Notes: a model not told the origin generated them from the letters alone. A stretch of 64,000 nucleotides of DNA from Gemmatimonadota bacterium (GCA_020350425.1 CP070716.1:2368967-2432966); one strand, 5' to 3'; positions 20,907 through 36,693 are shown, numbered from the stretch's first letter. Numbers and translations are program-made.

Positions 20907-20935
20907 GGGCGGGGGTGCCGTGGCACCGCCCGCCC
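20907..20935 (-). terminator. Terminator of the 11-heme fusion gene
   Basis: The arms 20907-20919 and 20922-20935 form a G+C-rich stem with one bulged G and a tight loop, 27 bases beyond the stop on the minus strand. It is followed by CTTCCCCTAAAAGG. This separates the two CbcL-like genes transcriptionally. Confidence 0.6.
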
Positions 20936-20961
20936 CCGCCGGTCCCGATTCCGGTGGAAGG

Positions 20962-22956
20962 TCACGAATCGGTGTATTGCGTCCCCCCGGACTCTGGCGC
21001 CGGGGCCCCCGGCGCATCGGCCTTGCCGGCAGCGCTCTCCGCCGGGTGGTGCGGCTCGGAGTGCGCCAGCTCGTCATCGTACCACTGCGCGTGATGGTGC
21101 TTCACGAAGTGCTCCGGCAGGCGGCCGGTGAGCCAGGCCCAGTTCATCGGATAGGCATCGGGATGCGCGATCACGAAGAACAGGTGCCACACCAGGATCG
21201 CGAGCGTCGCGAGCCACGCCTCGTAGTAGTGCACGGTCTGTGAGGCCGGCACGATCCACCACGGCAGGATCTGGACCGCCTGGACCGGGAACCAGAGCAC
21301 GAAGCCGGTGAGCGCCATGATCACCGTGCCCCACACCAGCGCCCAGTACTCGGCCTTCTGGGTGTAGTCGTACCGGCGAAAGCGCGGGTAGCGCTTGGTG
21401 CGCCAAGTGTAGTACTGCAGGTATCCCACCGCGTCGGTCGCGTCGCGCCAGTCCGGCAGCATCGCCTTGAACTCCTCCCTGCCCCGGCGCGACATCACCA
21501 CGTACAGCACGTGGCTCACGGCCTCCACGATGAGCAGCACCGCCGCGATCCGGTGCACGTTGGAGCGCACCGGCTCGTTCATGCCGAGGGCGGTGAGCCA
21601 CCGCACCCACCAGGCATCGGGGAACCGCAGCGCAAATCCAGTGACCACCAGCACAATGAACGCCGCAGCATTGAGCATGTGCTGCGTGACCTGAATGCGG
21701 TCGAGCCGCGTCACGTAGCCCACCCGCCGCTCCTCCCGCCGCCGCTCGATCAGGTAGTAGTTGAACACGACGGCATTGTGCAGCGCCATGAGCCCGATCG
21801 TCGCAGCGATCAGCACGTAGTAGAACAGGCGGATCGCGTTGTTGATCGGATTCGCGGCCATCGAGGCGGTGACGTGCGTATAGCTGGTCGCGAACGCGGC
21901 GTCGGCGTCCGGATGGCACTGCTGGCACGTGGCCGTGAGGTTTGCCGGGTGGATGGTGGACGCCGAGTCGCTCTGGGGCAGCACCGCGTGGGTGGTATGG
22001 CAGCTCACACAGGTGGCGGCGCGCGCGTAGTCGCGGCGCGTCGCCCAGCCGTGATAGCTGTCCTCATAGGTGCCGATCACGCCACCCTGCAGCCCGTACT
22101 TGGCGACGATCTCCGGATCACCGTGGCACTCGCCGCACGTCTCGGTGGCCAGGCGGGCGTCGTAGGTCCGGGCGTGGGGATCGTTGTGGGAGAGAATCAG
22201 GTGCTCCCCGTGGCAGTCCGTGCAGGTGGGGCTGTCTGCGAGGCCGGCGCGCAACGCACGGCCGTGGATGGAGGCGTCGTAGATCTCCTGGACGTCCCCG
22301 TGGCACTGGCCGCACGTGCTGGCCACGTTCACCCGGTTGATCCTGGACTGGGGATCCAGCGCCCCCCGCAGGTCGTGCACCCCGTGGCAATCCGTGCAGC
22401 GGGCGGCCTCACCCTCGCCGTTGCGGCCGTGCACCGACTGGGCGTACGACCCGTAGATCTGCGGCAGCCGGATGGCTTCCTCGGTGCGCAGGCCGGCCTC
22501 CCCGTGGCAGGCGGCGCACATCACGGGCACGTTCTCATGGTGGGTGCGGGCCTCGGGATCGGAGCTGCGCCGGATGTCGTGGCTCCCGTGGCAGGACGCG
22601 CACGTGGGGGCCGTCGCCATGCCTCGCGCCAACGCGTAGCCGTGCAGGCTGCCGCTGAACTCCCGTTCGACCGAGCCGTGGCAGCCGCCGCAATTCGGTG
22701 GCGGTGCGTCGTCGGGATGCGGGAAGCCCACGTAGCCCTGATGACACAGCACGCAGGCCATGCCGAGCGCTCCGTGCACGGAGGACCCGTACTCCTCCTC
22801 CGTGACGACCATCCGGGTGGGGTCCTCCAGGCCGGAGAACATCGCCTCGTTACCGTGGCACATGAGGCAGGCCTGGTTGCCCTGAGCCATGGCGGGTGCC
22901 GCCACAACCGACGCGAGCGCCGCGCAAAGAAGGGCTGACATCAGACGTGTCCGCAT
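20962..22956 (-). CDS. CbcL-like quinone oxidoreductase: 11-heme cytochrome c fused to membrane cytochrome b
   Basis: Protein of 664 aa. A signal peptide (about residues 1-25, AMAQG) is followed by 11 CXXCH motifs between about residues 30 and 345, with the same repeat grammar as its 19-heme neighbour (CASCHGSHDI, CTDCHGVHD, SxHG). The C-terminal half is a multi-helix cytochrome b. Candidate heme b histidines lie in LMALHNAVV, VTQHMLNAAAF, NVHRIAAVLL, VSHVLYVV, QTVHYYEAWL and WHLFFVIAH. A Pro/Ala/Glu-rich tail ends the protein. The architecture (periplasmic multiheme domain plus diheme b) is that of CbcL, which moves electrons from menaquinol to periplasmic carriers in Geobacter. The two fusions in tandem, with different heme counts, suggest two potentials or two partners. 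Confidence 0.88.
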   Translation of the reverse strand: MRTRLMSALLCAALASVVAAPAMAQGNQACLMCHGNEAMFSGLEDPTRMVVTEEEYGSSVHGALGMACVLCHQGYVGFPHPDDAPPPNCGGCHGSVEREFSGSLHGYALARGMATAPTCASCHGSHDIRRSSDPEARTHHENVPVMCAACHGEAGLRTEEAIRLPQIYGSYAQSVHGRNGEGEAARCTDCHGVHDLRGALDPQSRINRVNVASTCGQCHGDVQEIYDASIHGRALRAGLADSPTCTDCHGEHLILSHNDPHARTYDARLATETCGECHGDPEIVAKYGLQGGVIGTYEDSYHGWATRRDYARAATCVSCHTTHAVLPQSDSASTIHPANLTATCQQCHPDADAAFATSYTHVTASMAANPINNAIRLFYYVLIAATIGLMALHNAVVFNYYLIERRREERRVGYVTRLDRIQVTQHMLNAAAFIVLVVTGFALRFPDAWWVRWLTALGMNEPVRSNVHRIAAVLLIVEAVSHVLYVVMSRRGREEFKAMLPDWRDATDAVGYLQYYTWRTKRYPRFRRYDYTQKAEYWALVWGTVIMALTGFVLWFPVQAVQILPWWIVPASQTVHYYEAWLATLAILVWHLFFVIAHPDAYPMNWAWLTGRLPEHFVKHHHAQWYDDELAHSEPHHPAESAAGKADAPGAPAPESGGTQYTDS

Positions 22957-23072: not shown

Positions 23073-23642
23073 TTATGATACGGTGCTATTCCTAACGTCC
23101 CGGTTGGAATTCCTGTGCAGGGTTCCCTGGCAGGTTGGACAGAACTCCGCTCCCTTGAGGTCCACGTCCTCCACGTACGTAGAGGCCCGCATCACACACC
23201 CGTAGTCGGCGCAGTGCACCAACCCGAACGCGTGTCCGAGCTCATGCACCACCTCCTTGACGCTGCGCTCGAGCAGGAGACCATCATCCCGTGGGAGTCC
23301 GTAGAACTCGTTGCGCAGCCGATAGGTGGACATGACCGCCGCGGGTCCGTCGAGCTGCGACTGGCCGAACACGAAGGTCAGCACCGGGACGAACAGGTCG
23401 ACATCGGTGATCCCGATGATCTTCGAGGACGTCGGCGGCCGGTTGCGGAGCACGCCGGCCACCATCAGCGTGGCGTGGTATTGTCCCCGCTCTTGCACCA
23501 ACTTCGCCCTGAGATCGAGCCGGATGTCGAGGCGGACCGCGGGACGCGAGAAGATCTCGGCCACCGCCTCCACCAGGGCATCCGCCCACGCTGGGACGTA
23601 ATCGTTGAGATACGCAACGGAAATGGGGCCGGCCACGCTCAC
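23073..23642 (-). CDS. amzA: Archaemetzincin-type zinc metallopeptidase
   Basis: Protein of 189 aa. The signature is complete: HELGHAFGLVHC at residues 133-144 (zinc ligands His133, His137, His143), then Cys144, Cys149 and the Met-turn Met151, and a later CPTC pair (168-171). This HEXXHXXGXXHCX4CXM...CXXC pattern is specific to archaemetzincins, which hold a second structural zinc. There is no signal peptide, so the enzyme is cytosolic. GTG at 23642 overlaps the stop of the NtrC gene (GTGA), tying it to the two-component system. Its natural substrate is unknown for the family in general. Confidence 0.9.
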   Translation of the reverse strand: MSVAGPISVAYLNDYVPAWADALVEAVAEIFSRPAVRLDIRLDLRAKLVQERGQYHATLMVAGVLRNRPPTSSKIIGITDVDLFVPVLTFVFGQSQLDGPAAVMSTYRLRNEFYGLPRDDGLLLERSVKEVVHELGHAFGLVHCADYGCVMRASTYVEDVDLKGAEFCPTCQGTLHRNSNRDVRNSTVS

Positions 23643-24976
23643 CGCCGAATGCCATACCGCTTCAACTTGTTGTACAACGTGGCGCGATCGATACCCAACG
23701 CCTTGGCCGACCGCGAGATGTTCCCATCCATTTCCCGGAGCACCCGCTCGATGTGCTCACGCTCGAGGGCGGCGAGCGACTGCTCCGCCGGCTCGGCGCG
23801 CTGGTTGGTGGCCGAGAGCGGCAGGTCCGCGGGTGTGATCGCCGGGCCCTTGCCGATCACCACCGCTCGCTCGATCGCGTTCTCCAACTCCCGTACGTTG
23901 CCCGGCCAGCGGTAGCCCTGCAGCGTCGCCTCGGCATCGGGCGAGATATCGGTAATCACCTTGCCCATGGCCCGCGCGTACTTGCCGAGGAAGTGCTGCG
24001 CCAACGGCAGAATGTCTTCGCGACGCTCCCGCAGGGGAGGCACCTCCACACTGAAGACATTGATCCGGTAGTACAGGTCCTCTCGAAACGTCCCCGCCTC
24101 CACCAGCTGCTCGAGGTTCCTGTTCGTGGCGCACACGAGGCGGAAGTCCGACGACACGTCCTGCGTACCGCCCAGCCGCGTGAACCGCTTTGTCTCCAAC
24201 ACCCGCAGCAGGTCCACCTGCATTTTGGACGCGATGTCACCGATCTCGTCGAGAAAGAGGGTCCCACCGTTGGCAAGCTCGATCTTGCCCTTCCGCCGAT
24301 ACTGGGCACCCGTAAAGGCACCCTTCTCGTGCCCGAAGAGCTCGCTCTCGAGTAGCGTCTCCGGAATGGACCCTGAGTTCACGGCCACGATGGGGAAGAA
24401 GCGTCGCTTGCTGTGTGAGTGGATGGCGCGGGCGACGAGCTCCTTGCCGGTCCCGCTCTCGCCTCGAATCACGACGCTCGAATCGGTCTCGGCCACGGTG
24501 CGGATCAACTCCGTCACCCGCTGCATCTTCGCGCTCTGTCCGATGATCTCGGCCGTCCCGACAAGCTCCGACACCTGCTCCTTGAGCTGGACGTTCTCTT
24601 CGGCCAGTTCCTTCTGCCGCAGGATGTTCCGCACCAGGTTGGAGAGGTCGTCCGGATCCACCGGCTTGGTCACATAGTCGTACGCCCCGAGCTTGAGCGC
24701 CTCGACCGCCGTTTCCACCGAGGCGTAGGCGGTCAGGATGACGATCGCAGCCTGGCGATCGATCTCGCGCACCCGCTTCTGCAGGGAGATGCCGTCCATA
24801 CCGGGCATCTTGAGATCGATGATCACGATGTCGAACGGCCCGGCGTCCATCTTGTGGAGGGCCTTCTCGCCATCGCCGGCCGTCCACACCTGAAACCCGT
24901 CCTCGACGAACCACTCCTCGAGGGATTGCCGCACCGACAATTCGTCGTCGACGATGAGGATCTTTCGTTGCTTCAT
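23639..24976 (-). CDS. NtrC-family sigma-54-dependent response regulator
   Basis: Protein of 445 aa with three domains. The receiver has the acidic pair at D10-D11, the phosphorylation site Asp54 in IIDLKMPG and Lys104 in VTKPVD. The AAA+ domain has Walker A GESGTGKE (172-179), the sigma-54 contact loop GAFTGA (219-224) and Walker B TLFLDEIGD. A Fis-type helix-turn-helix lies at the C terminus (DGNISRSAKALGIDRATLYNKLKRYG). It activates transcription from sigma-54 promoters after phosphorylation. Its start overlaps the stop of the sensor kinase gene (ATGA), so the two are partners. Target genes are not shown directly; the surrounding cytochrome genes are the obvious candidates. Confidence 0.95.
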   Translation of the reverse strand: MKQRKILIVDDELSVRQSLEEWFVEDGFQVWTAGDGEKALHKMDAGPFDIVIIDLKMPGMDGISLQKRVREIDRQAAIVILTAYASVETAVEALKLGAYDYVTKPVDPDDLSNLVRNILRQKELAEENVQLKEQVSELVGTAEIIGQSAKMQRVTELIRTVAETDSSVVIRGESGTGKELVARAIHSHSKRRFFPIVAVNSGSIPETLLESELFGHEKGAFTGAQYRRKGKIELANGGTLFLDEIGDIASKMQVDLLRVLETKRFTRLGGTQDVSSDFRLVCATNRNLEQLVEAGTFREDLYYRINVFSVEVPPLRERREDILPLAQHFLGKYARAMGKVITDISPDAEATLQGYRWPGNVRELENAIERAVVIGKGPAITPADLPLSATNQRAEPAEQSLAALEREHIERVLREMDGNISRSAKALGIDRATLYNKLKRYGIRR

Positions 24977-26643
24977 GCCTCAGACCTGGCTGGTTGTTTG
25001 GCAAGCTGCGCACGCTCGCGCACGACCGTGTCGGGGTCGCGTGGCAACTCCAGTGTGAACGTGGTTCCCCCCCCCGGGTTTGACGCCAGGCTGATGCGCC
25101 CCTCGTGCCGCTGCACGATGCCGTAGACGACGGCTAGACCCAGGCCCACCCCCTTCGCTTCCGTCTTCGTACTGTAGAACGGATCGAACACCCGCTCCCG
25201 GGCGTCCTCGGGAATTCCGATCCCGGTGTCGCCCACCGAGAGGCTTACCCGCCTCCCGGAGTCGTGCTCCACGGCGCCGGTCGTGACCGTGAGGCGACCA
25301 CCGTCCGGCATCGCCTCGACGGCGTTGATCATGAGCGCGATCAGCGCTTGCACGATCTGCTCCGCATCGCAAATGACCCTATCGTCATCGAGCCGGAGGT
25401 CGGTCTGGGTCTCGATTCCCTTCAGCTCGGTGTGGTGACTCACGAGCTTCAGGGCCCGCTCCGCCAACTCGTCGAGATGTGCCTCCCGGAATTCCGCCTT
25501 GTGTTCCCGCGCATAGGTCAGCAGGTCTCGGACGATGTTACCGCAGCGCATCGACTCCGAACGGATCAGGTCGAGATTGTCCAGAATCCGGTCTCGCTCC
25601 TCGCCGGGGCTGAGCTTCCCGCGGATGCGGCGAGCGACGAGCTTGGCGTAGGTGAGGATACCTGTCAGGGGGTTGTTGAGCTCGTGAGCCACCGTCGCCG
25701 CCATCTTCCCCAGAGAGGCGGTCTTCTCGATCTGGATCATCTGCTGGTGGATCTCCTCGAGCTCGGCGGTCTTCTGCTGCACCCGCTCCTCCAGCGTACG
25801 CGACCACGCCTCCCGCTCCACGTGCGCGGCCTTGAGCCGGCGCGTCATCTCGTTGAAGGACTGGGCCAGCTCCCCCAACTCGTCCGGCCGGTCCAGCTCG
25901 ATCTCCACGTCGAGATTCCCCTCCGCCAACGCTTCCGTCCCGCGATGGATGCGCTTGGTCGGTACGTGCACGCCCTGATACACGATGCCCGCCATGAACA
26001 GCGCGGCGAGGAAGATGACTCCGCCCGCGAGCGCCAGCGTCCTGCGCCGGCTGGCGGCGAGGGCGGCGTCCACCGATCGCATCGACAGCTGGACCTCGAG
26101 CATCCCAAGCACGGTCTGCCCGGGGGCGTGGGCGTGGCACGCGCCGCCGGAACACCCCTCGCTGTTGCGAATGGGCGCCACATACTCCATGACCCGGTAG
26201 CCACGCTCCGTCTCGTGCAGCCGAGCATTCAGCGCCGGCGGCACGCTGTCGAGCGGCACGTCCGGCGCGTGGCAGGCACGGCACATGGGGGATCCCAGAT
26301 CCACGGAGACCCCGATGTCCGCCGCGGCATTGGAGTACCGAATCACGCCCAGCTTGTCGTAGATGCGGATCGCCTCCACGCTCGCCTCGTTGGCGATAAG
26401 GTCGATGGTCGTGGAGGTGCGCTCCCGCTCGTTGCGCAGCATGCTGGTGAACAGGCTCTGGTGAATCAGGACGCTGACGCGCTCGGCGTCCGAACGCAGG
26501 TGCTGCTCCAACATGTCGCGCTGGAAGCCGCTGCTCAGAGCGGCGTGAACCGCGAAGAGGAGGAAGATGGCCAGGAATGCCACGAAGAACAGCCGCAGGC
26601 TGAGCGACGCGGTGAACTTCCGTAATCTGGACGGTGCGCTCAT
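24973..26643 (-). CDS. Membrane sensor histidine kinase with heme-c motifs in its periplasmic domain
   Basis: Protein of 556 aa. Transmembrane helix 1 is at about residues 14-36 and helix 2 at about 203-222, enclosing a periplasmic domain of about 165 residues. That domain holds a canonical heme c site CRACH (121-125) and an expanded site CSGGACH (164-170). A HAMP linker, a coiled-coil segment, the HisKA box AATVAHELNNPLTGIL and the HATPase_c motifs (N box MINAVEAMPDGG, G1 VGDTGIGIP, G2 GVGLGLAVV) follow. The CXXCH puts heme outside the membrane, so redox state or a gas could be sensed. It is the last of the redox genes before the NtrC partner, with a four-base overlap. ATG at 26643 is preferred over an earlier in-frame start at 26667. 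Confidence 0.93.
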   Translation of the reverse strand: MSAPSRLRKFTASLSLRLFFVAFLAIFLLFAVHAALSSGFQRDMLEQHLRSDAERVSVLIHQSLFTSMLRNERERTSTTIDLIANEASVEAIRIYDKLGVIRYSNAAADIGVSVDLGSPMCRACHAPDVPLDSVPPALNARLHETERGYRVMEYVAPIRNSEGCSGGACHAHAPGQTVLGMLEVQLSMRSVDAALAASRRRTLALAGGVIFLAALFMAGIVYQGVHVPTKRIHRGTEALAEGNLDVEIELDRPDELGELAQSFNEMTRRLKAAHVEREAWSRTLEERVQQKTAELEEIHQQMIQIEKTASLGKMAATVAHELNNPLTGILTYAKLVARRIRGKLSPGEERDRILDNLDLIRSESMRCGNIVRDLLTYAREHKAEFREAHLDELAERALKLVSHHTELKGIETQTDLRLDDDRVICDAEQIVQALIALMINAVEAMPDGGRLTVTTGAVEHDSGRRVSLSVGDTGIGIPEDARERVFDPFYSTKTEAKGVGLGLAVVYGIVQRHEGRISLASNPGGGTTFTLELPRDPDTVVRERAQLAKQPARSEA

Positions 26644-26726
26644 CAGCGCCCCCTCGAGCACCCCCACACCAGCAACTGTCCCACCGTCCCGCCTCCCGGC
26701 CGGGGATGCAGGACCCCGACTACCAT

Positions 26727-27536
26727 TTAAATGTGCATGTGGAACAGCTGATCTACCAGTGCCTCGAAGCGCTCCCGTCCCAGAACCTGCTCTACATTGA
26801 GGTTGGCTTCACCCCCGTCGGCGAGCGTCGGACCCAGGGCGGCCTGGCCATCGACAGCGACGACCTCGCGCAGAGAGCGCTTCACGAGTCGGATCTTGCG
26901 AAGAAACCAGACGAGCGTTCGATCGCCGTGGTAGACATTCGGGACGGCATCCAAGGACTCGTGAGGGGAGATGCGCAGCAACCACTCGTCACCGGCCCCG
27001 GACACCGATCCCGCACGCAACTGCTCGACGTAGCGCTGGTTGACGCTCGCGACCTCCCCCGAGATCGGCGTCTCGAGGGGGATCGTCATCCGGCCGCGCA
27101 CGACCCACCCGCACGGCTCGCCCCGCTTGAGCAGCGCGCCGGCGCGGGGGGCCACGACGTCGTCCAGCGGATGCAGGACCCGCATGACGTGCCCGTCGAG
27201 CCCGGCGGTCACCCCGTCGGGTCCCGCATCTCGTAGCCAGAAGTGGCCCGCCGTATAGGGCCGGTCCAGATGGAGCTCGCAATCCGCGATGAGCCTCGAG
27301 ACATAGGCGTTCACCTGATCCTCCACCGCCACCTGCGACGGCTCGAGTTCCGTTGCCTCGTCGGCCGGCAGATACTCATTCGCGGCGACCGCCCCCGACC
27401 CATGCCCCCGCAGTGCGTGGAACAGCTCGCACTGTTCACAGTCGTAGTTGCGGTCGCACAGCCTGTAGCTCAGGACACCCGCCTGGACCCAGATACAGGG
27501 AAGCTCTTCGTTGCGTTGGATTGGGGATACCGCCAT
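26727..27536 (-). CDS. GcvH-fold protein A with N-terminal four-cysteine motif, no lipoyl lysine
   Basis: Protein of 269 aa. The N-terminal part has CIWVQAGVLSYRLCDRNYDC followed by EQC, four cysteines that could bind metal or an FeS cluster. The rest resembles the H protein of glycine cleavage (PISGEVASVNQRYVEQLRAG and later EWLLRISP). In true GcvH a lysine about seven residues before the S/T-P of the second strand is lipoylated; here that position is arginine (VVRGRMTIPLETP), so lipoylation is not expected. ATG at 27536 is used because GGGGGA is correctly spaced. It sits in an operon with an NrfD protein, a ferredoxin and two more GcvH-like proteins. The function is unknown; glycine cleavage is not supported. 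Confidence 0.75.
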   Translation of the reverse strand: MAVSPIQRNEELPCIWVQAGVLSYRLCDRNYDCEQCELFHALRGHGSGAVAANEYLPADEATELEPSQVAVEDQVNAYVSRLIADCELHLDRPYTAGHFWLRDAGPDGVTAGLDGHVMRVLHPLDDVVAPRAGALLKRGEPCGWVVRGRMTIPLETPISGEVASVNQRYVEQLRAGSVSGAGDEWLLRISPHESLDAVPNVYHGDRTLVWFLRKIRLVKRSLREVVAVDGQAALGPTLADGGEANLNVEQVLGRERFEALVDQLFHMHI

Positions 27537-27572
27537 GATCATTCCCCCGAGCGTTGCGCACCGCCGGGCGCG

Positions 27573-28268
27573 CTACTCGCTCAACAGAAACTCCCGTGCC
27601 ACCTCAGCCCACTGCTCCGGCGCCAGCACCCGCGCAAATCCGTCGACCGGCACGCCGCCGTCGGGCAGCACCGTTCCCAACTCCCCAGCCGGCATCGCCC
27701 GCAGCTTTTCGACCGTGTCCGCCATCCAGGCCCGCGCCAGGCGGCCGCTCAGCAGATTCTTGAGCACGGCGCCGCGATTCGGTACGCGCACCTTGAGGAA
27801 CCAGCCCTCCCCGTATGGATCGGCCGCGAGCTGCGGCGAGCCCAGCACCGCATCGTTCACCGCCACGACTTCACCGGTCACCGGGGAGAGCATGGGGATG
27901 GATTCGGCTTCCACGTCGACGGCCCATCCCCGCTCGCCCTGCGACAGCCGGGCGCCGACCGTGGGGAGGCCGAGGCCCCCTGGAGTCCCCAGCAGTCGCC
28001 GGGCGAAGTCGTCCATCCCGACCTTCACCAGGTCACCATCCTCGGGCGTGGCCCACGTATGGCCCTGGTGGAAGTAGACCCCCTCCGGGGTTTCAAACCA
28101 TAGCGCCGGCTTCCGTGCCGGGCGCGCTGCCGCTCCCGCCTCCACCTCGTGCCGGGCGGGCGAACCGAGCAGCCGCCAGAATCCGACCAGCACCAACAGG
28201 TACCCGATCACGATCAGGTACTCGACGCCCTTGGTGGCGAAGATGTCTATGCTCTCGATACCCTGCAT
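27573..28268 (-). CDS. Membrane-anchored GcvH-fold protein B, no lipoyl lysine
   Basis: Protein of 231 aa with one N-terminal transmembrane helix (about residues 15-34) and a soluble GcvH-like domain: GVYFHQGHTWATPEDGDLVK, VGMDDFARRLLG, then SPVTGEVVAVNDAVLGSP and GEGWFLKVRVPN. These are the strand patterns of glycine cleavage H protein, but the usual VESVKA lysine is replaced (VDVEAES). A C-terminal extension of about 60 residues ends with a short helix. ATG at 28268 is chosen because it gives the clean membrane start. It lies between the NrfD gene and GcvH-like gene A. The anchor suggests it works at the inner membrane next to the NrfD/ferredoxin complex. Confidence 0.75.
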   Translation of the reverse strand: MQGIESIDIFATKGVEYLIVIGYLLVLVGFWRLLGSPARHEVEAGAAARPARKPALWFETPEGVYFHQGHTWATPEDGDLVKVGMDDFARRLLGTPGGLGLPTVGARLSQGERGWAVDVEAESIPMLSPVTGEVVAVNDAVLGSPQLAADPYGEGWFLKVRVPNRGAVLKNLLSGRLARAWMADTVEKLRAMPAGELGTVLPDGGVPVDGFARVLAPEQWAEVAREFLLSE

Positions 28269-28278
28269 GGTGTCGCTC

Positions 28279-29544
28279 CTAGGCTGCAACGATGTCCACG
28301 CGCCGTTCTCCCTCACCCGTGCGATCCACCTCCGCGAAGCTCAGGACCGGCATCCGATTGACCACCCAACGGAACACCCAGATCTCGGCCGAGATCACCG
28401 CGAGTGTCACGACGATCTCCATCCACGTCGGGACATAGCGCTCGGCCATGTACCACTTGAATCCGATCACCGACACGTTGAGCCGGTTGAGCACGATCCC
28501 CAGCAACGTGAGGACCGCGGCGGCCCGGATCACCGGGAGGCGACCCTTCCGGAATCCGGAGAGGAACAGCGCCGCGGGCACGCCCACGAAACCCACGATC
28601 TCCAGCAGGTACCAGGCTCCCCACCCGGTGCCCAGGTACGTCCACCGCTGCCCGTGCACGAACACGATCAGCTGGAGGAAGAGGTACACGAACATCGCGC
28701 CCGCACAGATGCGAGCCAGCCCGCGCAGGATGTCGTCGTGCGTGGCGCGCAGGCGCTGCCCCACCCGATGGTGGAACACCTTGTGGGTGATGCTGCCTTC
28801 GAAGATCACCATCGACAGCCCGGCGAAGACGCTGGAGACCACGAACAGGATCGGGATGAACTCCGAGTACCACAGGGGGTGCACCTTCCCCTTGGCCATC
28901 AGGTACAGCGCCCCGAGCCCCGACTGGTGCAGCAGCGACAGGGTGATCCCGAAGATCACCGCGCCGAGGGTGAGGGCCTTGAGGACGCGTCGCACGCGCC
29001 GCCAGCCGAGCCATTCCGCCACCGCCGGGGAAAACTCGATGAACTCGGCCATCATGTAGAGCATGAAGTGCCAGGCGACGAGGAAGAGCACCGAACTCAC
29101 ACCGAATGAGTTGCCGATGATCGGGTTGATCACGTTCCACGGCCGTCCCAGGTCGAGCAGCAACGCGCCGGCGTAGAACACGTAGGCCAGGAATCCATTG
29201 AGTACCGTCACCCGGACGATGGGGTGGTACTTCTCCTGGCCCAGGATGTAGACCATGAACGTCACGACGTAGGCGCCGCCCGCGAAGGCGACCCCGGTGA
29301 TCACGTCGAAGCCGATCCACAGGCCCCAGGGGACGTCCTGCGACAGGTTGGTGATCGACCCCAGGCCCTTGGCGAACCTGATCACGAGCAGCACCCCACC
29401 CAAGAGGACGATGGCGCTCGTGATCACGTTGAACGGCGTGAGCAGCCGGCCGCGGGGCTTCAGCTCACCCAACAGGAACGTCCCGAAGCGCCGCAGCTCT
29501 GGGCCGAAGCGCGGCCGTCCGCCGTCCACGAGATGCATCGTCAT
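28279..29544 (-). CDS. NrfD/HybB-family quinone-interacting membrane subunit
   Basis: Protein of 421 aa with about ten transmembrane helices, of the polysulfide reductase NrfD family (HybB-like). Such subunits hold a quinone site and exchange electrons with a periplasmic iron-sulfur partner. Visible family features are PWGLWIGFDVITGVAFAGGA near residues 72-91, LDLGRPWNVINPI, FLVAWHFMLYMMAEFIEFSP and SLLHQSGLGALYLMAKGKVHPLW. The ATG overlaps the stop of the ferredoxin gene (ATGA). No hydrogenase or molybdopterin subunit is encoded nearby, so the complex is not a hydrogenase-2; electrons may pass to multiheme cytochromes instead (inference). Confidence 0.9.
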   Translation of the reverse strand: MTMHLVDGGRPRFGPELRRFGTFLLGELKPRGRLLTPFNVITSAIVLLGGVLLVIRFAKGLGSITNLSQDVPWGLWIGFDVITGVAFAGGAYVVTFMVYILGQEKYHPIVRVTVLNGFLAYVFYAGALLLDLGRPWNVINPIIGNSFGVSSVLFLVAWHFMLYMMAEFIEFSPAVAEWLGWRRVRRVLKALTLGAVIFGITLSLLHQSGLGALYLMAKGKVHPLWYSEFIPILFVVSSVFAGLSMVIFEGSITHKVFHHRVGQRLRATHDDILRGLARICAGAMFVYLFLQLIVFVHGQRWTYLGTGWGAWYLLEIVGFVGVPAALFLSGFRKGRLPVIRAAAVLTLLGIVLNRLNVSVIGFKWYMAERYVPTWMEIVVTLAVISAEIWVFRWVVNRMPVLSFAEVDRTGEGERRVDIVAA

Positions 29545-30413
29545 CGCTCTTCCTCCTCTTCCCCCTCGGCTATCTGACGTGCCCGCGACGCTCGACTGAG
29601 GGCCAGCAGCAGCGGCGGCGCGAGTGTGAGCACCAGCGGCACCCCGTACAGGAACTCCCTCGTGTACACAGGGAACGGTGTCTCGCCCACGTCCGCCGGG
29701 AACCCCAACTGCTCGAACGGCACGGAGGCGAGGTACAGCCAGCTCGTGCCGCCTACCTCGCGCTCACCGTAGATGTGGTGCACGTACTTTTCCGGCTCGA
29801 GGGCGATCCGCCGTCTGCCTTCATCGAGCAAATCGGAGCGTCGGCCGAATTGCAGCGCGCCCGCTGGACAGTTCGCCACGCAGGCGGGCCGCTCGCCCTG
29901 CTCCAGCCGCTCCCAGCACATGACGCACTTCTGGATCTTCGGCACCGGGCTGTCGTACTGGAACTTGGGGGCGTCGAAGGGACACGAGACCATGCAGAAA
30001 CGGCATCCCATGCACTTCGACTCGCGCCACCGCACCGGCCCCTCGGGCTCCTTGTACATCGCCTTGGTCAGGCAGGCGGAGGCGCACGCCGGCTGCAGGC
30101 AGTGCATGCACTGCCGCTTCGCGGTCACCGGCCCCTTGGCGGTCTCGTAGCGGTTGACGACCGTCCATTGCGTGGGCGACGTCTGCCGCTCCACCGACCG
30201 GTCGATACTCGCCTCAGGCTGCGGCAGGTCGTTCGCCGTCGCGCAGGCGAACTCGCACATGCGGCACCCGAGACACTTGGTGGTGTCCACCAGCACCCCC
30301 ACCCGATCGGCGAGGGGCGCCGTGGGCGGCCGCTCCTCCGCCCCCAGCCTTCCGCCGACGAGCGACACTCCGCCCGCGGCGCACATGGTTTTCAGCAGAT
30401 CTCGTCGCTTCAT
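29541..30413 (-). CDS. Periplasmic four-cluster ferredoxin subunit (HybA-like) with C-terminal membrane helix
   Basis: Protein of 290 aa. The N terminus is a twin-arginine signal (MKRRDLLKTMCAAGG). Four [4Fe-4S] cysteine sets are visible: CLGCRMCEFAC, CMHCLQPACASAC, CMGCRFCMVSC and CVMCWERLEQGERPACVANC. A hydrophobic helix at about residues 255-272 anchors the C terminus, as in HybA. It is the electron-transfer partner of the NrfD protein encoded next, with overlapping codons. A GcvH-fold gene precedes it by 78 bases. The combination HybA plus HybB without catalytic hydrogenase subunits is unusual and points to a quinone module that donates to or accepts from other periplasmic proteins. Confidence 0.9.
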   Translation of the reverse strand: MKRRDLLKTMCAAGGVSLVGGRLGAEERPPTAPLADRVGVLVDTTKCLGCRMCEFACATANDLPQPEASIDRSVERQTSPTQWTVVNRYETAKGPVTAKRQCMHCLQPACASACLTKAMYKEPEGPVRWRESKCMGCRFCMVSCPFDAPKFQYDSPVPKIQKCVMCWERLEQGERPACVANCPAGALQFGRRSDLLDEGRRRIALEPEKYVHHIYGEREVGGTSWLYLASVPFEQLGFPADVGETPFPVYTREFLYGVPLVLTLAPPLLLALSRASRARQIAEGEEEEER

Positions 30414-30491
30414 GCGAATCGCTCCCTGTTTCCCCGCTCATGTGCGCACGGATCTCCGCGCGCACCGATCACCACCCGACGCACGCCGTTT

Positions 30492-31181
30492 CTATGAGTC
30501 GAGAAACGTCCTCTGGAGATCCTGCCATGCGGCACCGTCGAGGGTCGCCAGAATGCCCGACGGGATCTCTCCGCCATCGGCCAGCGCCACGCCGACCCCT
30601 GCACCACCCGGCAGCCGGAGCAGATGCTCCCGCAGCTGGTGGTACTGGCTCCGCGTCCAGTCGACGGCCGAGTCGGCGATCGACCACGTGGGAACCTCGA
30701 ACTCGACCTGTTCCGGCTCGATGCGGTACAGCCAGCTCCCGTGCTGCTCGTGGAGCCCGCTCCATTCCGTCTCGCCGGATGGCGTGGGATTGACCTCGAG
30801 GATGCGCCCGGTCACGGGCGAGCGGACTGTCAGGAAGTGCCCATTCCGCCCTACGCGCAGCAGCGGCTCACCCTTCTTGACCTGGGGTCCGCCTTCGTGC
30901 AGCTCGATGTGGTACGGCGCACCCACCAGCCCCAGCAGCAACGGATGGACCCCGACGAGCAACTCACCGCCCTCCAGGATCCGGCTCCAGGTGAAGGTCG
31001 GCTGCAGGAAGACACCTCTGGGCACGCGCTTGACCGCCTCGGAGAGCGGCGTGAGCCCCGGGAGCCCGTGTTCCACCCCCGCGACGACACCACGCCGCCT
31101 CTGCACGAGGAAGTAATTGGCGGCGATCAGGACAGCCACCGTGAGAATCGCGAGGACGACGACCATGACACGCTCCGGCAA
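30492..31181 (-). CDS. Membrane-anchored GcvH-fold protein C, no lipoyl lysine
   Basis: Protein of 229 aa with an N-terminal transmembrane helix (about residues 6-25), a basic QRRR stop and a GcvH-like domain: GVFLQPTFTWSRILEGGELL, VGVHPLLLGLVG, VRSPVTGRILEVNPTPSG and GSWLYRIEP. The lipoyl-lysine position is not a lysine (RNGHFLTVRSP). TTG at 31181 is preferred because AAAGGAG precedes it by eight bases; an ATG at 31166 is the alternative. This is the first gene of the long operon that continues through the ferredoxin, NrfD, GcvH B, GcvH A, sensor kinase, NtrC and archaemetzincin. It is the third lipoate-less GcvH paralogue within 5 kb. Confidence 0.72.
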   Translation of the reverse strand: MPERVMVVVLAILTVAVLIAANYFLVQRRRGVVAGVEHGLPGLTPLSEAVKRVPRGVFLQPTFTWSRILEGGELLVGVHPLLLGLVGAPYHIELHEGGPQVKKGEPLLRVGRNGHFLTVRSPVTGRILEVNPTPSGETEWSGLHEQHGSWLYRIEPEQVEFEVPTWSIADSAVDWTRSQYHQLREHLLRLPGGAGVGVALADGGEIPSGILATLDGAAWQDLQRTFLDS

Positions 31182-31488
31182 GTGTTCATCTCCTTTTCTT
31201 GGCAAGGAGGATGCCGGACGGCGCACGGCGCCGCTTGGACTAGGTAAGTCTTTGTTCAGCTGTCACTTAAGACGATGTGCGGCGACAGGGCGCGCGCTAG
31301 GCTACTGTAGAGGATTTCTACGCTTGATTCCGGCCGGATCGCCTTCGCCCCGCATAACTCGTTGGATTGAAGTGCGTTAGCCTCGGTGGGGGATTTCTCG
31401 GCGGCCGCTGTCGAGAATATCTACAACAATCCGGTCGTCGGGTGCCGGACTCTCCGACACCCGACCCGGGGCAGTGTGGTGAGCTTCC
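31182..31488. other. 307-bp intergenic region with inverted repeat and hairpin
   Basis: No gene is recognisable here. It holds the promoter region of the GcvH-like C operon, a GTAGA-N5-TCTAC inverted repeat at 31307-31321 that could bind a dimeric regulator, and near the left end the terminator hairpin of the 22-heme gene (31437-31465). The middle contains an AT-richer patch around 31243-31272 with GTAAGTCTTTG and CACTTAAG. Confidence 0.5.
31437..31465 (-). terminator. Terminator of the ligandless-bc operon
   Basis: GTCGGGTG (31437-31444) pairs with CACCCGAC (31458-31465); an inner CGGA/TCCG extends the stem with one mismatch. It lies 24 bases past the stop of the 22-heme gene and is followed on the minus strand by a T-rich run (GATTGTTGTAG). 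Confidence 0.6.
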
Positions 31489-33486
31489 CTACCCCCCGGG
31501 GAGCGGCTCGATCTGGTGACACAGATGGCACGCCGCGGGTGCGTTGTGCTCCACCCGGTCGGCGTGGCACACCGTGCACACCTGACGCGACCATTCGGTG
31601 ATCCCCTTCGCCTTGTCGCCGTGGCACGTACTGCACTGCGAGTGCCCGAACGCGAGGGCGTGGCGGTCCTGCGCCCCGCCGCGGTGGCAGGAGAGGCAGT
31701 CGGCCTCGGGTTGGTGGTGGAAGTCGTGGCATGACACGCAGTCCACGGCTGCACCGCTCATGTTGGGTGCGGCGTGGCACATGGTGCAGGAGAGTCCCGC
31801 CTCGCGGTGCGGATCGTGCGGGAAGTCCCCGGTCTCGGTGGCCACGGGCGCCTTGGGCGCCCCGCCGGGGCATTCATGGCACTCGGCGCAGTTCTTGGCG
31901 CCGATCTGGGCGTGATGACAGCCGACGCAGTCGGACGGCGAGGTCAGCCTCGTCTTCCCGTGGTCGTCAAGCGGCGTATGGCAGCTCGTGCATTCGAGCC
32001 CGGCGTCCAGCACGTGCCGCTCGTGATCGAACGTCGCACCGCGGAAGGACAGCTCGCGGCGTTCCACGCCCAGGTGACACTGCAGGCAAACGTTCTCGCT
32101 CACCCGCGGCCCGAGATCCACCTCTGGCGCCGTGTACGGCAGGCGGCCGATGCGCACGGCATCTTCCACCAGCTCCAGGCTCGCCCGCAGCAGCTCGTCG
32201 GCGTAGGCGATGTTGTGTGCTCCCTTGCCCCGCTCGACGAAGTCCAGATTTCCACGGGCAAGGCCGAGCAGCGAGTCCACCTGCACGCGCACCCGCACCG
32301 GGGCCGAGCCGGCGGCCCGGGTCGCCCCCTCCACTACGCGCTTCGTGAGGCCCAGCTTGCGGTCCATCTCCTGCTGCCACGACGGGAGGATGTTGGCGTA
32401 GCGGATGCCGTGGCACGAGAGGCAAGACGCCTCCCCCGCGAAGCGTACCGACTCGTGCGCGCTCACGTTGCGCGGCAGCTCGTGGCACCCGGTGCACGAG
32501 ACCCGTGCGAGGAACATGGAGCTGGGCACATCGTCGGCCCCGTGCCCGCCGATTCCTGCGTAGAGCTGCTGCTGCGCCTCGTGCACCCGCCGGTGGCACG
32601 CCGCACAATCAAGCTCCGCCGTCTCCTTGAGAGAGAAGAGCCGGTGCACGATTTCGGCGTGGCACTGCGTGCACTCCACGTTGTGCTCGGCGATGTGCAC
32701 CCGGTGGACCAGGGTCGTGTTCTCGAACTCCTCGATACGCTCCGGCCGATTGTGGCACGTCCAACAGCGTTGCTCGTCGGCCTCGCCCGTGCCGCGGGTC
32801 ACCTCCTCGTGGCACGACACGCAGGAGACGAGGTCCTCGACGTACTGCTCGTGGTCCACCACGAACCCCGCCGGCGACACCACGCGCGGCGGCGAGGTGT
32901 GGCACGCGACGCAGCCGGTCGCGACCTCCTCGGCTTCGGCCGCCTTGAAGTGACACAGATTGCACGTGGTCTGCGTGACCGCGAGGTGCTCGCCTTGCAC
33001 GATCTGGGAATGACACGAGGTACAGCGCAGCTGCTTGCCGCGGCGTAGCTCGCCCAAGTGCTGGGTGTGGTCGAACCGCACCCCCATGTAATTCACCACG
33101 CCCTCGACCTTGCGGAGCGAGTGGCACCCCGAGCGCAGGCAGGCGGCGTCCTCGATCTCGGCCCACGGCTTCGTGCCGTAGGCTCCCGTCACGTAGCGCA
33201 CCACCTGATTGGCCGCCTGGAACTTGCCCATGGCTTCCGCTTTGATGCCTGGGGCGTAGTGGCACTTGATGCACGGGACGTCGTTGTGCGTGGAGGTCGC
33301 CCAGGAATCGTAGTAGGGCTGCATGATGTGGCAGTTCGTGCAGAACCCCGGCTGAGCGCTGTACTCGACGAACCCCACCGTGCCGATGGCTGCCAGGATC
33401 ACGGCGAGCACGCTCACCTGCACGGCGATCTTCAGCGGCCGCGAGAGGCGCTCGAACCGCTGCTTCACAGATCCCGTCTCGGCCAT
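31489..33486 (-). CDS. NapC/NirT-anchored large multiheme cytochrome c (21 CXXCH plus one CX4CH)
   Basis: Protein of 665 aa. An N-terminal membrane helix (about residues 20-40) leads into the NapC/NirT signature CTNCHIMQPYYDSW, followed by THNDVPCIKCHYAPG. I then count motifs along the whole chain to a total of 21 CXXCH, with an additional CLRSGCH (CX4CH) as the third site. NapC-type domains oxidise quinol and pass electrons to periplasmic hemes. Here the domain is extended into a very long heme wire, interrupted by one heme-free helical stretch at about residues 345-435. It is the last gene of a four-gene operon, one base after the 9-heme gene. A role as periplasmic wire fed by the neighbouring cytochrome b or directly by quinol is inferred. 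Confidence 0.9.
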   Translation of the reverse strand: MAETGSVKQRFERLSRPLKIAVQVSVLAVILAAIGTVGFVEYSAQPGFCTNCHIMQPYYDSWATSTHNDVPCIKCHYAPGIKAEAMGKFQAANQVVRYVTGAYGTKPWAEIEDAACLRSGCHSLRKVEGVVNYMGVRFDHTQHLGELRRGKQLRCTSCHSQIVQGEHLAVTQTTCNLCHFKAAEAEEVATGCVACHTSPPRVVSPAGFVVDHEQYVEDLVSCVSCHEEVTRGTGEADEQRCWTCHNRPERIEEFENTTLVHRVHIAEHNVECTQCHAEIVHRLFSLKETAELDCAACHRRVHEAQQQLYAGIGGHGADDVPSSMFLARVSCTGCHELPRNVSAHESVRFAGEASCLSCHGIRYANILPSWQQEMDRKLGLTKRVVEGATRAAGSAPVRVRVQVDSLLGLARGNLDFVERGKGAHNIAYADELLRASLELVEDAVRIGRLPYTAPEVDLGPRVSENVCLQCHLGVERRELSFRGATFDHERHVLDAGLECTSCHTPLDDHGKTRLTSPSDCVGCHHAQIGAKNCAECHECPGGAPKAPVATETGDFPHDPHREAGLSCTMCHAAPNMSGAAVDCVSCHDFHHQPEADCLSCHRGGAQDRHALAFGHSQCSTCHGDKAKGITEWSRQVCTVCHADRVEHNAPAACHLCHQIEPLPGG

Positions 33487-33487
33487 C

Positions 33488-34720
33488 CTAAGGCTGCTCC
33501 TCCCGCAGCTTGAACCAGGCGAGGACGATCACCGCGAGCGTGAGGAACCACACCGGAATAAGCAGGAGCTTGTGCTCCCACTGCTCCTCGGCGTGCACCT
33601 CCGCGGTCGCTCGGATGATCCCCGTATTCGACCGCACGGCGAGGCCCAAGTCCTCCAGCCGCTCGAAGTTCAGGCTGTGTTGTACGAGGGCGATCTGATT
33701 GTATTCCGAGACGGCACTCTGGTAGCGGAACCGCTCGTCGGCCACCTCGTGCCCCATCTCCACCATCTCCTCGATCGCATCGGCCGCGTAATGCAGCTCC
33801 TCGGTGGCACGCAGCACTTCCTCCTGCAGCTCCACCCCCATGAGCGCGGGAGCGCTCTCGGGCTCGTGGCACCGAACGCACAGGGCCGCGATCGCCTCGG
33901 GTGCCGTGCGTTCCGTGCCGTGGTTGCTGTGGCATCCGAGGCAGCCAGGCAGTGTCCCGCTGCGGGCCGGTCCCCCGTGAGGACCCTGGTAGAACGCCCG
34001 CTCGAGGAGCAGGTGGCACCGGCCACACACGTCCGCGATCTGCGTGACCGCCGGCGGCAGCGCCGCGTGGGAGCCATGGCACCCGATGCACGTCGGCGAG
34101 GCGAAGTTGCGCTTCTCGAATACGCCGATGCCGTGCGCCCCGGTGCGATAGCGCTCGTACTGGTCGATCGGCTCGCCGTACTTCGCCATGAGCTGCGCAT
34201 CCTCGTGACACCTCCCGCAGGTGGCCGGGATGTTCGTGGGGTGGACCTCGCTGCGGGCGTCCTCAGGTGGCAGGATCAGGTGGGCGTTGTGGCAGTCGGT
34301 GCAGGTGGGCGCGTCGGTGTTGCCCTGCTCGAGCAGCAGCTGCCCGTGGCGGCTCGTGCGGAACTCGGCGAGCTGATCGGCCGCCAATCCGAATTGCCGC
34401 ATCTGGTTGGGGTCGGCGTGGCACACGCTGCACAGCTCGATGATCTCCAACTTGGTGGGCGTCCCCAGGAAGCGCCCCCGGTGGGCCGGGTCGATTTCGT
34501 ACGCGGTCGGGTCGCCACCGTGGCAGTCGTCGCACCTGATGCCGTAGTCCGAATGCACCCCGAGGGTGAACGAACGCCGCTTGTCCGCGTGGCAGATGAT
34601 GCAGCCGTACGCCGAGTCATCCTGGGCCGCGAGTCCCTGCGGCGCCCAACCGGTAGTCGGAGCGGCGGGCGCGGCTCCCACCAGGAGCGCTGCCCCCAGC
34701 GCGAGGAGCGTCCCAGTCAT
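33488..34720 (-). CDS. 9-heme periplasmic cytochrome c with C-terminal membrane anchor (module A)
   Basis: Protein of 410 aa with a signal sequence at the N terminus and nine CXXCH motifs (CIICH, CDDCH, CSVCH, CTDCH, CGRCH, CIGCH, CGRCH, CLGCH, CVRCH) in the first 280 residues. A helical segment follows, and one transmembrane helix near residues 383-403 ends in a short basic tail. The plan is the same as that of the 9-heme protein at 40016-41284, and individual repeats align (CTDCHNAH with PPEDARSEVHPTNI, versus CLSCHPAH with PPSDPLSSVHPVNV). Its ATG overlaps the stop of the cytochrome b gene. It probably replaces cytochrome c1/f as the electron acceptor of the bc-type complex. Confidence 0.88.
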   Translation of the reverse strand: MTGTLLALGAALLVGAAPAAPTTGWAPQGLAAQDDSAYGCIICHADKRRSFTLGVHSDYGIRCDDCHGGDPTAYEIDPAHRGRFLGTPTKLEIIELCSVCHADPNQMRQFGLAADQLAEFRTSRHGQLLLEQGNTDAPTCTDCHNAHLILPPEDARSEVHPTNIPATCGRCHEDAQLMAKYGEPIDQYERYRTGAHGIGVFEKRNFASPTCIGCHGSHAALPPAVTQIADVCGRCHLLLERAFYQGPHGGPARSGTLPGCLGCHSNHGTERTAPEAIAALCVRCHEPESAPALMGVELQEEVLRATEELHYAADAIEEMVEMGHEVADERFRYQSAVSEYNQIALVQHSLNFERLEDLGLAVRSNTGIIRATAEVHAEEQWEHKLLLIPVWFLTLAVIVLAWFKLREEQP

Positions 34721-36063
34721 GGCGTGTTCCCCCTCTCCCCGGCAGCGCTGTCACTCGGGACCGCCGGCCGCGCCGGCCCGACCCGCGGCAGCGGAGCAGC
34801 TCTCTCGCCCGGCACCACCCGCTCTTGGCGCGCCTCCTGTCCGATGCCCTCCGAGGGAGGCAGCGACCCAATGCCACGCCCCACAAGCCACAACACGACG
34901 AAGCCACCGAAGAACAGCAGCCCCAGCACTGCGACGACGGGTCGCTTGCGGATGCGGCGCTCCGGACCGCGGTCGAACAGAGGCAGGAGCACCAGGCTCA
35001 CGCCCAACAGCGTGAAGACGATGAACCCCCAAATCCCGAGGTAGCGAAGCAGGGCCAGCGACACGTCCACCGGCACCCAGGTGGAGACGAGCTCGTGCGG
35101 CACGACGAGCGGATTCGCCGGCGGTCCGAACGGCCGGGGGTACAGCACCGCCAGCGTCACGGCGATCGCCAGCACCAGCACCGTCACGCTCAACGACCGC
35201 AGCAGGTGCGTGGGGAAGAACCGCACGCCTTGTTGGCTCCCGTCGTCGGCGCTCTGGTGCTGCTGCGGGTTCGGCGCGCCGCGGCGGCGTCGGCCGACGG
35301 ATTGCTCTTCGACGTGCACCGGCGGCGCGATGCCGCGTCGGCGCACCAGCGTGAAGTGGTACGACAGCAGCGCCAACGAGACCCAGGGCAGCACGATCAC
35401 GTGGATCGAGAAGAAGCGGCTGAGCGTCGCGCCCGACACGATCACATCGCCCATGAGCGTGTCCGCGATCAGGCCGCCGACCAGTGGAAAGCCCGAGATC
35501 GCCACGAGCACCTCGGTCACGGTCCAATACGCCCACTGGTCCCAGGGCAGCAGGTATCCGGTGGCCCCGAACGCGAGGATCACTCCCAGGAGCAGCAGGC
35601 CGATGGTCCAGTTGGTCTCCCGCGGGGGCTTGTACGCCGCCTCGAGCAACACCCGTGCCATGTGCGCCAGGACGGCGACAACGATCAGGCTGGCCGACCA
35701 AACATGGAGATCCCGGATGAGCCACCCGAAGGAGACGTTACTCACGATGTGCTGCGTGCTGGGGTAGGCCTCCTGCACGGAGGGCCGGTAATAGAGCGCC
35801 ATCAGCACGCCCGTGACCACCAAGATCATGAACAGGACGTAGGTGATGCCCCCGAACATCTGCCGCCAGCCCACGTGCGGATCGAGCCGGTAGCCCAGCA
35901 TCTTGCGCAGCGCCTCGTCGATTCGCAGGCGGCGGTCGATCGGCCCGTACAGCAGCCCCAGGAACCGCGCCCCGCCCAACAGGCCAGCGTCGGTGCTCTC
36001 CTTGATGTCCACCCAGGTTTGGGAGAACCACGATTTGGCTGCGTACCACGCTCGGCGGATCAT
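34717..36063 (-). CDS. Cytochrome b of a bc-type complex lacking the PEWY motif (module A)
   Basis: Protein of 448 aa with about eight membrane helices. All four b-heme histidines are present with canonical spacing: His120 and His134 (13 between), and His221 and His236 (14 between). The conserved GATGYLLPWDQWAYW (residues 166-180) is also there. In the subunit-IV half the quinol-oxidation motif PEWY is missing: the aligned segment reads ELVSTWVPVD (STWV at 327-330). A linker of about 30 polar residues precedes this half, and a Pro-rich tail of about 60 residues ends the protein. It is encoded directly after a Rieske-like gene that has lost its cluster ligands. Bifurcated quinol oxidation at a normal Qo site is therefore unlikely. 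Confidence 0.88.
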   Translation of the reverse strand: MIRRAWYAAKSWFSQTWVDIKESTDAGLLGGARFLGLLYGPIDRRLRIDEALRKMLGYRLDPHVGWRQMFGGITYVLFMILVVTGVLMALYYRPSVQEAYPSTQHIVSNVSFGWLIRDLHVWSASLIVVAVLAHMARVLLEAAYKPPRETNWTIGLLLLGVILAFGATGYLLPWDQWAYWTVTEVLVAISGFPLVGGLIADTLMGDVIVSGATLSRFFSIHVIVLPWVSLALLSYHFTLVRRRGIAPPVHVEEQSVGRRRRGAPNPQQHQSADDGSQQGVRFFPTHLLRSLSVTVLVLAIAVTLAVLYPRPFGPPANPLVVPHELVSTWVPVDVSLALLRYLGIWGFIVFTLLGVSLVLLPLFDRGPERRIRKRPVVAVLGLLFFGGFVVLWLVGRGIGSLPPSEGIGQEARQERVVPGERAAPLPRVGPARPAVPSDSAAGERGNTP

Positions 36064-36064
36064 C

Positions 36065-36526
36065 CTAGCGCTCCGTCACGTACACCGCACCGTCCCGCAC
36101 GAACACTCCGTAGCGGGCGAGCGGCGCGGTCGTGAGACCGGTCACGACGTTACCGTGGAGATCGTACACCACGTAGGAACAGGGGGAGTACACGCGCAAC
36201 GATGCCTCATCCCACTCCAGGATACAGTCGTCGCTCGGCGAGACGCCCTGCAGGGCGAAGTACTCGGCGGCGTTGGCGCGCACCACCAGGATCGCCCGCT
36301 CTCCCCAACGCACCAGCCGGCTGGCGCCCACCGGGAAGTCGGCCTCCCGCACCACGCGGTAGGCCGGCTGGATTTCGGGGATCTCGAGGTGCCCTGCGGG
36401 GAGGACGTAGAGCCCGATGCTCAGCGCGATCGTCGCGAGAATCAACGTGACGACCCCGCCGAGCAGCAGGTCGTTGACCCCGATGCCGGAGCCCTTCCCG
36501 TCGACCCGCCCTTCCGTCACACTCAC
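36065..36526 (-). CDS. Rieske-fold protein that has lost all four [2Fe-2S] ligands (module A)
   Basis: Protein of 153 aa with one N-terminal membrane helix (about residues 20-42) and a C-terminal Rieske-like domain. It aligns with the intact Rieske at 39524-40006, for example YDLHGNVVTGLTTAPLARYG against [20 protein letters not shown]. Box I, CTHLAC in the intact protein, is SPSDDC here; box II, CACH, is SPCS. The four ligands Cys, His, Cys, His are all serine (96, 98, 114, 117), while both disulfide cysteines (Cys101 and Cys116) remain. The fold should survive without a cluster. GTG at 36526 is preferred, as GAGGAG lies six bases upstream. It is followed after one base by the PEWY-less cytochrome b gene. 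Confidence 0.85.
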   Translation of the reverse strand: MSVTEGRVDGKGSGIGVNDLLLGGVVTLILATIALSIGLYVLPAGHLEIPEIQPAYRVVREADFPVGASRLVRWGERAILVVRANAAEYFALQGVSPSDDCILEWDEASLRVYSPCSYVVYDLHGNVVTGLTTAPLARYGVFVRDGAVYVTER

Positions 36527-36608
36527 ACGCTTCTCCTCGACGCGTCCTGGACAACGACTTACGGTGCTATTGTCGTCCAACAGTCGCACCGCCGGCGCCG
36601 ATGTGCAA

Positions 36609-36640
36609 CCGGCCCCGCCCCCTCACGAGGGCGGGGCCGG
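36609..36640 (-). terminator. Strong terminator after the 9-heme lipoprotein gene
   Basis: CCGGCCCCGCCC (36609-36620) and GGGCGGGGCCGG (36629-36640) form a perfect 12-bp stem. It sits 54 bases past the stop of the lipoprotein gene on the minus strand and 83 bases before the Rieske-like gene, so the module A operon should have its own promoter in 36527-36608. Confidence 0.7.
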
Positions 36641-36693
36641 CATTCGATTCCTGCGTGGCCGACCACCCGTACCGGTCGTCCCTGTCGGTCCGA

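Follow-up and report, generated by a model that had tools for sequence, protein, structure and literature searches.

Comparison with described systems

H-proteins are generally understood as lipoate carriers only. One redox-metabolic reuse is LbpA, a GcvH-like lipoate-binding protein whose gene adjoins the dedicated sHdr cluster for sulfur oxidation; its lipoyl lysine is strictly kept and the protein is lipoylated (PMC6067878). Chlamydial and streptococcal GcvH-like proteins (TIGR03077; 5a35) are also H-protein relatives beyond the classic glycine cleavage set. Among the membrane redox complexes, HybB and QrcD, both relatives of HmcC, are considered to receive their protons from the cytoplasmic side of the membrane and their electrons from the periplasmic side (PMC6303296), while very little is known of the biological importance of bacterial archaemetzincins (PMC3427221). 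Elements of these systems meet in a 64,000-nucleotide stretch of a Gemmatimonadota bacterium (GCA_020350425.1, CP070716.1:2368967-2432966; hereafter the window, with positions counted from its first letter). Here three GcvH-fold proteins without the lipoyl lysine, designated P1, P2 and P3, form a cassette with an HmcB/HmcC-like pair, a histidine kinase with c-type haem motifs, an NtrC-type response regulator and an archaemetzincin. The lysine-less H-proteins thus have as neighbours a membrane redox complex, a two-component system predicted to sense haem, and a metalloprotease, and a metabolic fold of long standing appears to have been taken over for redox regulation. The principal new result is the cassette; no description of it was found in the open-access literature, an earlier account in subscription papers being possible.

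With Hmc of Desulfovibrio the cassette shares the HmcB/HmcC-like pair, a putative HmcD-like segment and, in the window, nearby multihaem cytochromes. It differs in that the HmcD-like segment bears an H-domain, the nearby cytochromes match HmcA weakly, and the cassette has its own haem kinase, NtrC-type regulator and archaemetzincin (family M54). An NrfD-type subunit of the ten-helix group, a four-cluster ferredoxin and the expectation of cytoplasmic proton uptake (PMC6303296) are held in common with HybA/HybB and Qrc (QrcCD), whereas no hydrogenase or QrcA/B partner is present among the classified cassette genes, which encode cytoplasmic H-fold subunits instead. With GcvH itself (PF01597, TIGR00527) the fold is common (TM-score to 0.90, Z to 15), but the cassette proteins lack the lipoyl lysine, carry additional anchors, cysteine modules and a C-terminal DGG region, do not occur with gcvP or lplA, and score far under the GcvH equivalog cut-off. 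Unlike LbpA, the P1-P3 family does not keep the lipoyl lysine; from the chlamydial and streptococcal proteins it differs in context, and its scores lie far under the TIGR03077 cut-off.

The genes of the cassette and the candidate promoter are as follows:

23073-23642, minus strand: archaemetzincin (M54) metalloprotease (Pfam PF07998, 89.6 bits)
23639-24976, minus strand: NtrC-type response regulator (Pfam REC, sigma-54 AAA+ with GAFTGA, Fis-type helix-turn-helix)
24973-26667, minus strand: membrane histidine kinase (Pfam), two c-haem motifs (CRACH, CSGGACH) before the HAMP domain
26727-27542, minus strand: P1, soluble, with GcvH fold, a four-cysteine module at the N-terminus and a helical DGG region at the C-terminus; the lipoyl-lysine register holds R
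27573-28268, minus strand: P2, TKGxEY/HmcD-like transmembrane segment and predicted cytoplasmic GcvH-fold domain; A in register
28279-29544, minus strand: HmcC/HybB-like NrfD-family membrane subunit (NCBIfam HmcC 402.3 bits, HybB 250 bits; Pfam NrfD)
29541-30413, minus strand: HmcB/HybA-like ferredoxin (NCBIfam HmcB 317.8 bits), 16 cysteines, four cluster motifs
30492-31181, minus strand: P3, N-terminal transmembrane anchor and GcvH-fold domain (Pfam 25.2 bits); G in register
31202-31216, minus strand: sigma-54-like -24/-12 site CGGCATCCTCCTTGC, directly upstream of P3

The start of P2 is most likely the ATG at 28268, which follows AGGAG (corrected from an open frame at 28316). P3 starts at the TTG at 31181, preceded by AAAGGAG, in agreement with the end coordinate given in the original prediction, which a model had made from the sequence of the window.

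H-domain proteins without a lipoyl lysine

P1, P2 and P3 score 28.0, 59.4 and 25.2 bits, respectively, against GCV_H (PF01597), all above the Pfam gathering cut-off of 22.2, and their sequence matches in the PDB at E < 0.01 are exclusively H-proteins. The AlphaFold model of P2 (pTM 0.76) superimposes on H-protein 1onl with a TM-score of 0.90 and an rmsd of 1.6. That of P1 (pTM 0.81) matches an H-protein with Z 15.3, against 5.9 for the best match beyond the family, in a comparison that mainly concerns residues 89-216 and hardly covers the four-cysteine module. P3 is assigned the GcvH fold by sequence. With TIGR00527, the GcvH equivalog model, the scores (23.9, 57.6 and 17.9 bits for P1, P2 and P3) do not reach the cut-off of 115.85. 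In a tree of 100 domains, quickly built from few columns and with canonical GcvH sampled from Gemmatimonadota only, one branch (SH-aLRT 98) splits the sampled canonical GcvH from all cassette-type domains, and P2 proteins of different phyla cluster together, which suggests a single origin of the cassette-type domains. P1-P3 are genuine, conserved proteins whose function differs from that of GcvH.

The lipoyl-lysine register was taken as the residue 8 before the conserved SPVxG proline, where P1 has R, P2 has A and P3 has G. Relatives were collected by a scan of species genomes with a P2 alignment, which gave 161, 80 of them kept and annotated by purpose-built profiles. Lysine stands in the register in 1/35 relatives of P1, 3/45 of P2 and 2/14 REC-GcvH (receiver-GcvH) fusions, and is conserved in no subgroup. 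The canonical GcvH of the same genome (140 bits) is clustered with GcvP and an LplA-like gene approximately 44 kb outside the window. Across the 80 related loci, 1.07 Mb in all, neither GcvP nor LplA relatives were found; GcvT was not among the search targets. Since the true gcvH-gcvP-lplA cluster lies elsewhere, neither GcvP nor LplA was found in the loci and the lysine is unconserved, a glycine cleavage role for P1-P3 is excluded. A gcv cluster concealed near the cassette was likewise rejected, given the distance of the real one and the result for the 80 loci.

A lysine does occur one residue past the canonical position in 30 of the 45 P2 relatives, so that lipoylation at this shifted site might be proposed, but the position is variable, with E in the P2 of the window and R, H, G, T or V in other relatives, and the search for LplA turned up no ligase gene in the loci. 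Lipoyl ligases, moreover, require the lysine at the exact tip of the hairpin. Shifted lipoylation was rejected as a candidate and we regard it as very improbable. The loss of the lysine would also suit decaying, functionless gcvH copies, an idea that can practically be dismissed: the reading frames are open and kept across phyla, residues are invariant, the gene order recurs and the well-supported branch sets the cassette domains apart from the sampled canonical GcvH. Conservation already contradicts decay.

The cysteines of P1 (C16, C29, C35 and C38) form the motif C-x12-C-x5-C-x2-C. All four are kept without exception across phyla, both in 33 aligned proteins, picked by a pattern that includes the cysteines, and in eight proteins picked by cassette position. 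The module is probably metal-binding, and could hold either zinc or an iron-sulfur (Fe-S) cluster. The original prediction had rightly described the GcvH pattern in all three proteins, the replacement of the lipoyl lysine, two membrane-anchored members (P2 and P3, with P1 soluble) and the four-cysteine motif, and had excluded glycine cleavage. Of the genes whose presence next to the cluster in related genomes it had named as counter-evidence, gcvP and lplA were sought in the 80 loci and not found.

Distribution and domain architecture of the cassette

In the window and in several Gemmatimonadota loci the gene order is P3-HmcB-HmcC-P2-P1-kinase-regulator-archaemetzincin; in other loci the kinase, regulator and protease differ in order and strand. 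The same gene set is present in more than ten bacterial phyla, as judged from the titles of the loci. Carriers include Gemmatimonadota, Deltaproteobacteria/Desulfobacterales (Thermodesulfobacteriota), Bacteroidetes (Bacteroidota), Ignavibacteria, Calditrichota, Nitrospinae, Nitrospirae, Rokubacteria, Acidobacteria (Acidobacteriota), Planctomycetota, Anaeromyxobacter (Myxococcota), Schekmanbacteria and Riflebacteria. Forty-two loci span 12 kb or more: 28 of them contain HmcB, HmcC, kinase, regulator and M54 together, and 39 possess two or more GcvH-like genes.

Fusions of a transmembrane segment, a receiver domain and an H-domain (TM-REC-GcvH) occupy the P3 position, directly before HmcB, in loci of Ignavibacteria and Bacteroidetes. 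REC-GcvH fusions in this position are found in loci L058, L059, L067, L069 and L105; further ones lie near an HmcBC pair (L046) and beside a haem-type kinase (L045). Other additions on relatives are doubled four-cysteine modules, read in L122, and a different module, CPFL...C...CPxY. Such mixing of receiver domains and cysteine modules is typical of regulatory proteins.

In the Gemmatimonadota loci L045 (345-4205) and L046 (7566-14723), a haem-motif kinase with a cysteine-rich insert in its ATPase region stands beside two REC-GcvH fusions; those of L046 are preceded upstream by an HmcBC-like pair and a multihaem cytochrome. At L122 (9527-15096), two GcvH-like proteins with doubled four-cysteine modules adjoin M54, the regulator and the kinase, and an open reading frame of 1384 residues with a ferredoxin-type cysteine motif lies beside these two. 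Paired membrane-anchored GcvH-like genes occur in L117, L118, L119, L121, L124 and L125, all from Ignavibacteria or Bacteroidetes.

Predicted membrane topology

HmcB and HmcC are the best family matches for the ferredoxin and the membrane subunit, yet both scores are below cut-off (317.8 against 420, and 402.3 against 550). No HmcC relatives were found among solved structures by sequence search. A quinone site is expected in the HmcC/HybB-like subunit. The membrane segment of P2, whose gene is directly downstream of that for HmcC, matches HmcD in 6/8 orthologues (best E 7.3e-6; P2 of the window reaches 17.5, below the cut-off of 34), and because of this resemblance P2 is predicted to lie beside HmcC.

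Sequence prediction indicates membrane anchors in P2 and P3 and a soluble P1. An N-terminal membrane segment is present in 42/46 P2 proteins, with a net charge of -1.0 before and +1.6 after it. The HmcB-like protein of the window begins with MKRRDLLK, an N-terminus of the twin-arginine translocation (Tat) type, and a Tat motif is found in 42/56 of its relatives. Based on the charges flanking the P2 segment and on the TM-REC-GcvH fusions, which share the layout of P2, since receiver domains work in the cytoplasm, the H-domains are predicted to be cytoplasmic, on the opposite face of the membrane from the Tat-exported ferredoxin. H-domains and HmcB are thus unlikely to exchange electrons directly, a possibility rejected on this predicted topology.

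Kinase, archaemetzincin and candidate sigma-54 promoter

All 44 related kinases contain two haem motifs, in 43 of them as a CxxCH and Cx3-4CH pair, from which the kinase is predicted to be a c-type haem sensor. The full M54 motif (HExxHxxGxxHC-x4-CxM...CxxC) is present in 45/49 cassette archaemetzincins. Among 249 Gemmatimonadota genomes a strong M54 match was found in 10/10 with a P2 orthologue and in 5/239 others (Fisher p 1.4e-14, with E-value thresholds that were chosen after the lists had been inspected). One of these five, from the same genus as the window, has a regulator-M54 pair ending at a contig edge, and because this exception is cut by the contig end the true contrast may be stronger than counted.

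A strict sigma-54 pattern has 34 sites in 2.4 Mb of strand. In 17 of the 60 testable cassettes, where 0.4 were expected, a site lies in the 400 bases before the first gene or just within that gene; the 17 span several phyla, and owing to the shared ancestry of the loci the nominal probability makes the enrichment look stronger than it is. Because promoter sites are enriched upstream, the cassette probably answers to a sigma-54 regulator, its own being the simplest candidate. In the window a one-base variant, CGGCATCCTCCTTGC (31216-31202), stands ahead of the P3 ribosome site and start codon, and no sigma-54 sites were found upstream of other operons of the window (22956, 20765, 36589, 38292, 39522, 26667 and 23642).

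Proposed role of the H-domains

On the evidence, the H-domains are more probably regulatory or scaffold parts than electron carriers, and a redox-regulation role of the cassette is likely in outline. The specific form that we propose has about an even chance of being right: P1-P3 would carry no lipoate and would serve, on the cytoplasmic side of an HmcBC-type quinone oxidoreductase, as its scaffold or regulatory subunits, the whole being governed by a haem-sensing two-component system of its own. P2 would place a small HmcD-like segment in the membrane beside HmcC, P3 would provide a second membrane-anchored H-domain, and P1 would add a soluble one together with a four-cysteine module that probably binds metal. 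All three would work on the cytoplasmic face, while HmcB would trade electrons with multihaem cytochromes of the periplasm. Near HmcC, such an H-domain could keep partners in contact or gate the proton path, and receiver fusions would make it switchable. The kinase, through its c-type-haem-binding periplasmic domain, and its NtrC-type partner would control the unit via the sigma-54 promoter before P3; in some lineages the control would act on the H-domain too, via the attached receiver domain. One of the cassette proteins is probably trimmed or degraded by the archaemetzincin.

Several points weigh against this proposal. The physical contact and the regulatory effect of the H-domains are inferred, and the regulator may merely set the expression of the operon, in which case the H-domains would be an ordinary structural part. 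The loci are related by descent, so that the counts across them are not independent. GcvH-like pairs occur in L119 and L121 with neither HmcBC nor any other cassette gene around, and in L122 with the kinase, regulator and M54 only, HmcBC being absent. The sigma-54 site of the window is weak, its first base being off consensus; unremarkable alone, it is backed by the position of sites in relatives, and such sites are not enriched over the window as a whole.

The gene content of L122 would fit another arrangement, in which the H-fold proteins are transducers upstream of the kinase that sense, from the cytoplasmic side, which quinone or proton state HmcC is in and pass this on to the haem kinase or its regulator, with HmcBC as the sensor and not the regulated enzyme. 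There the kinase, regulator and M54 stay with the GcvH-like genes though HmcBC is gone; H-domains fused to receiver domains are also in keeping with it, and since HmcC/QrcD relatives are thought to draw cytoplasmic protons (PMC6303296), a cytoplasmic subunit could read or gate the path. We consider it unlikely: the kinase has a predicted haem sensor of its own and needs no second input, and the sigma-54 sites put the cassette downstream of a sigma-54 regulator. Lower still we would place the suggestion that the P1 cysteines hold an Fe-S cluster and that electrons pass through P1-P3, as a branch in the cytoplasm, from quinone to ferredoxin. The invariant C-x12-C-x5-C-x2-C and the different or doubled four-cysteine modules of other family members speak for it, but P2 and P3 have no such cofactor motif, HmcB is predicted across the membrane, a zinc site would suit the motif equally well, and no reductase or flavoprotein is a constant partner in the annotated loci. 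The original prediction had named quinone/ferredoxin electron transfer or assembly as the likely new use of the fold; the reuse itself is supported, and electron transfer by the H-domains is improbable on the predicted topology. Its link to HybA- and HybB-like partners holds across phyla, with their identity nearer HmcB/HmcC. The c-haem histidine kinase, sigma-54 response regulator and archaemetzincin, which are the usual partners, the receiver-fused H-domains and the promoter ahead of many cassettes had escaped it.

The scaffold or regulatory role can be extended, more tentatively, to an undescribed and widespread redox-signalling system, in which lipoate-free H-proteins are interaction modules that couple a quinone oxidoreductase, a haem two-component pathway and a bacterial archaemetzincin. 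The H-domain would then be a general protein-interaction module of bacterial signalling, even when fused to a receiver. If true, a conserved lipoate-free H-domain family that many phyla share, and whose genes mostly neighbour those for redox and signalling functions, would represent reuse of the fold as a regulatory or scaffold part; bacterial archaemetzincins would gain a defined context and a route to their substrate; and there would be an explanation for proteins that match the Pfam glycine cleavage H-protein model and yet are not lipoate carriers.

Neighbouring genes

Multihaem cytochromes with 9 to 21 CxxCH motifs lie on both sides of the cassette (17868-22956 and 31489-38292), and several of them are conserved also in the related genome of L036/L048. 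The product of 36065-36589 is a Rieske-fold protein without the CxH and CxxH cluster-ligand motifs, as is its relative in L036, and a cytochrome b adjoins it (34717-36063). A normal-looking Rieske protein (39524-40006; CTHLAC, CACHNG) is encoded beside a second cytochrome b (38425-39522).

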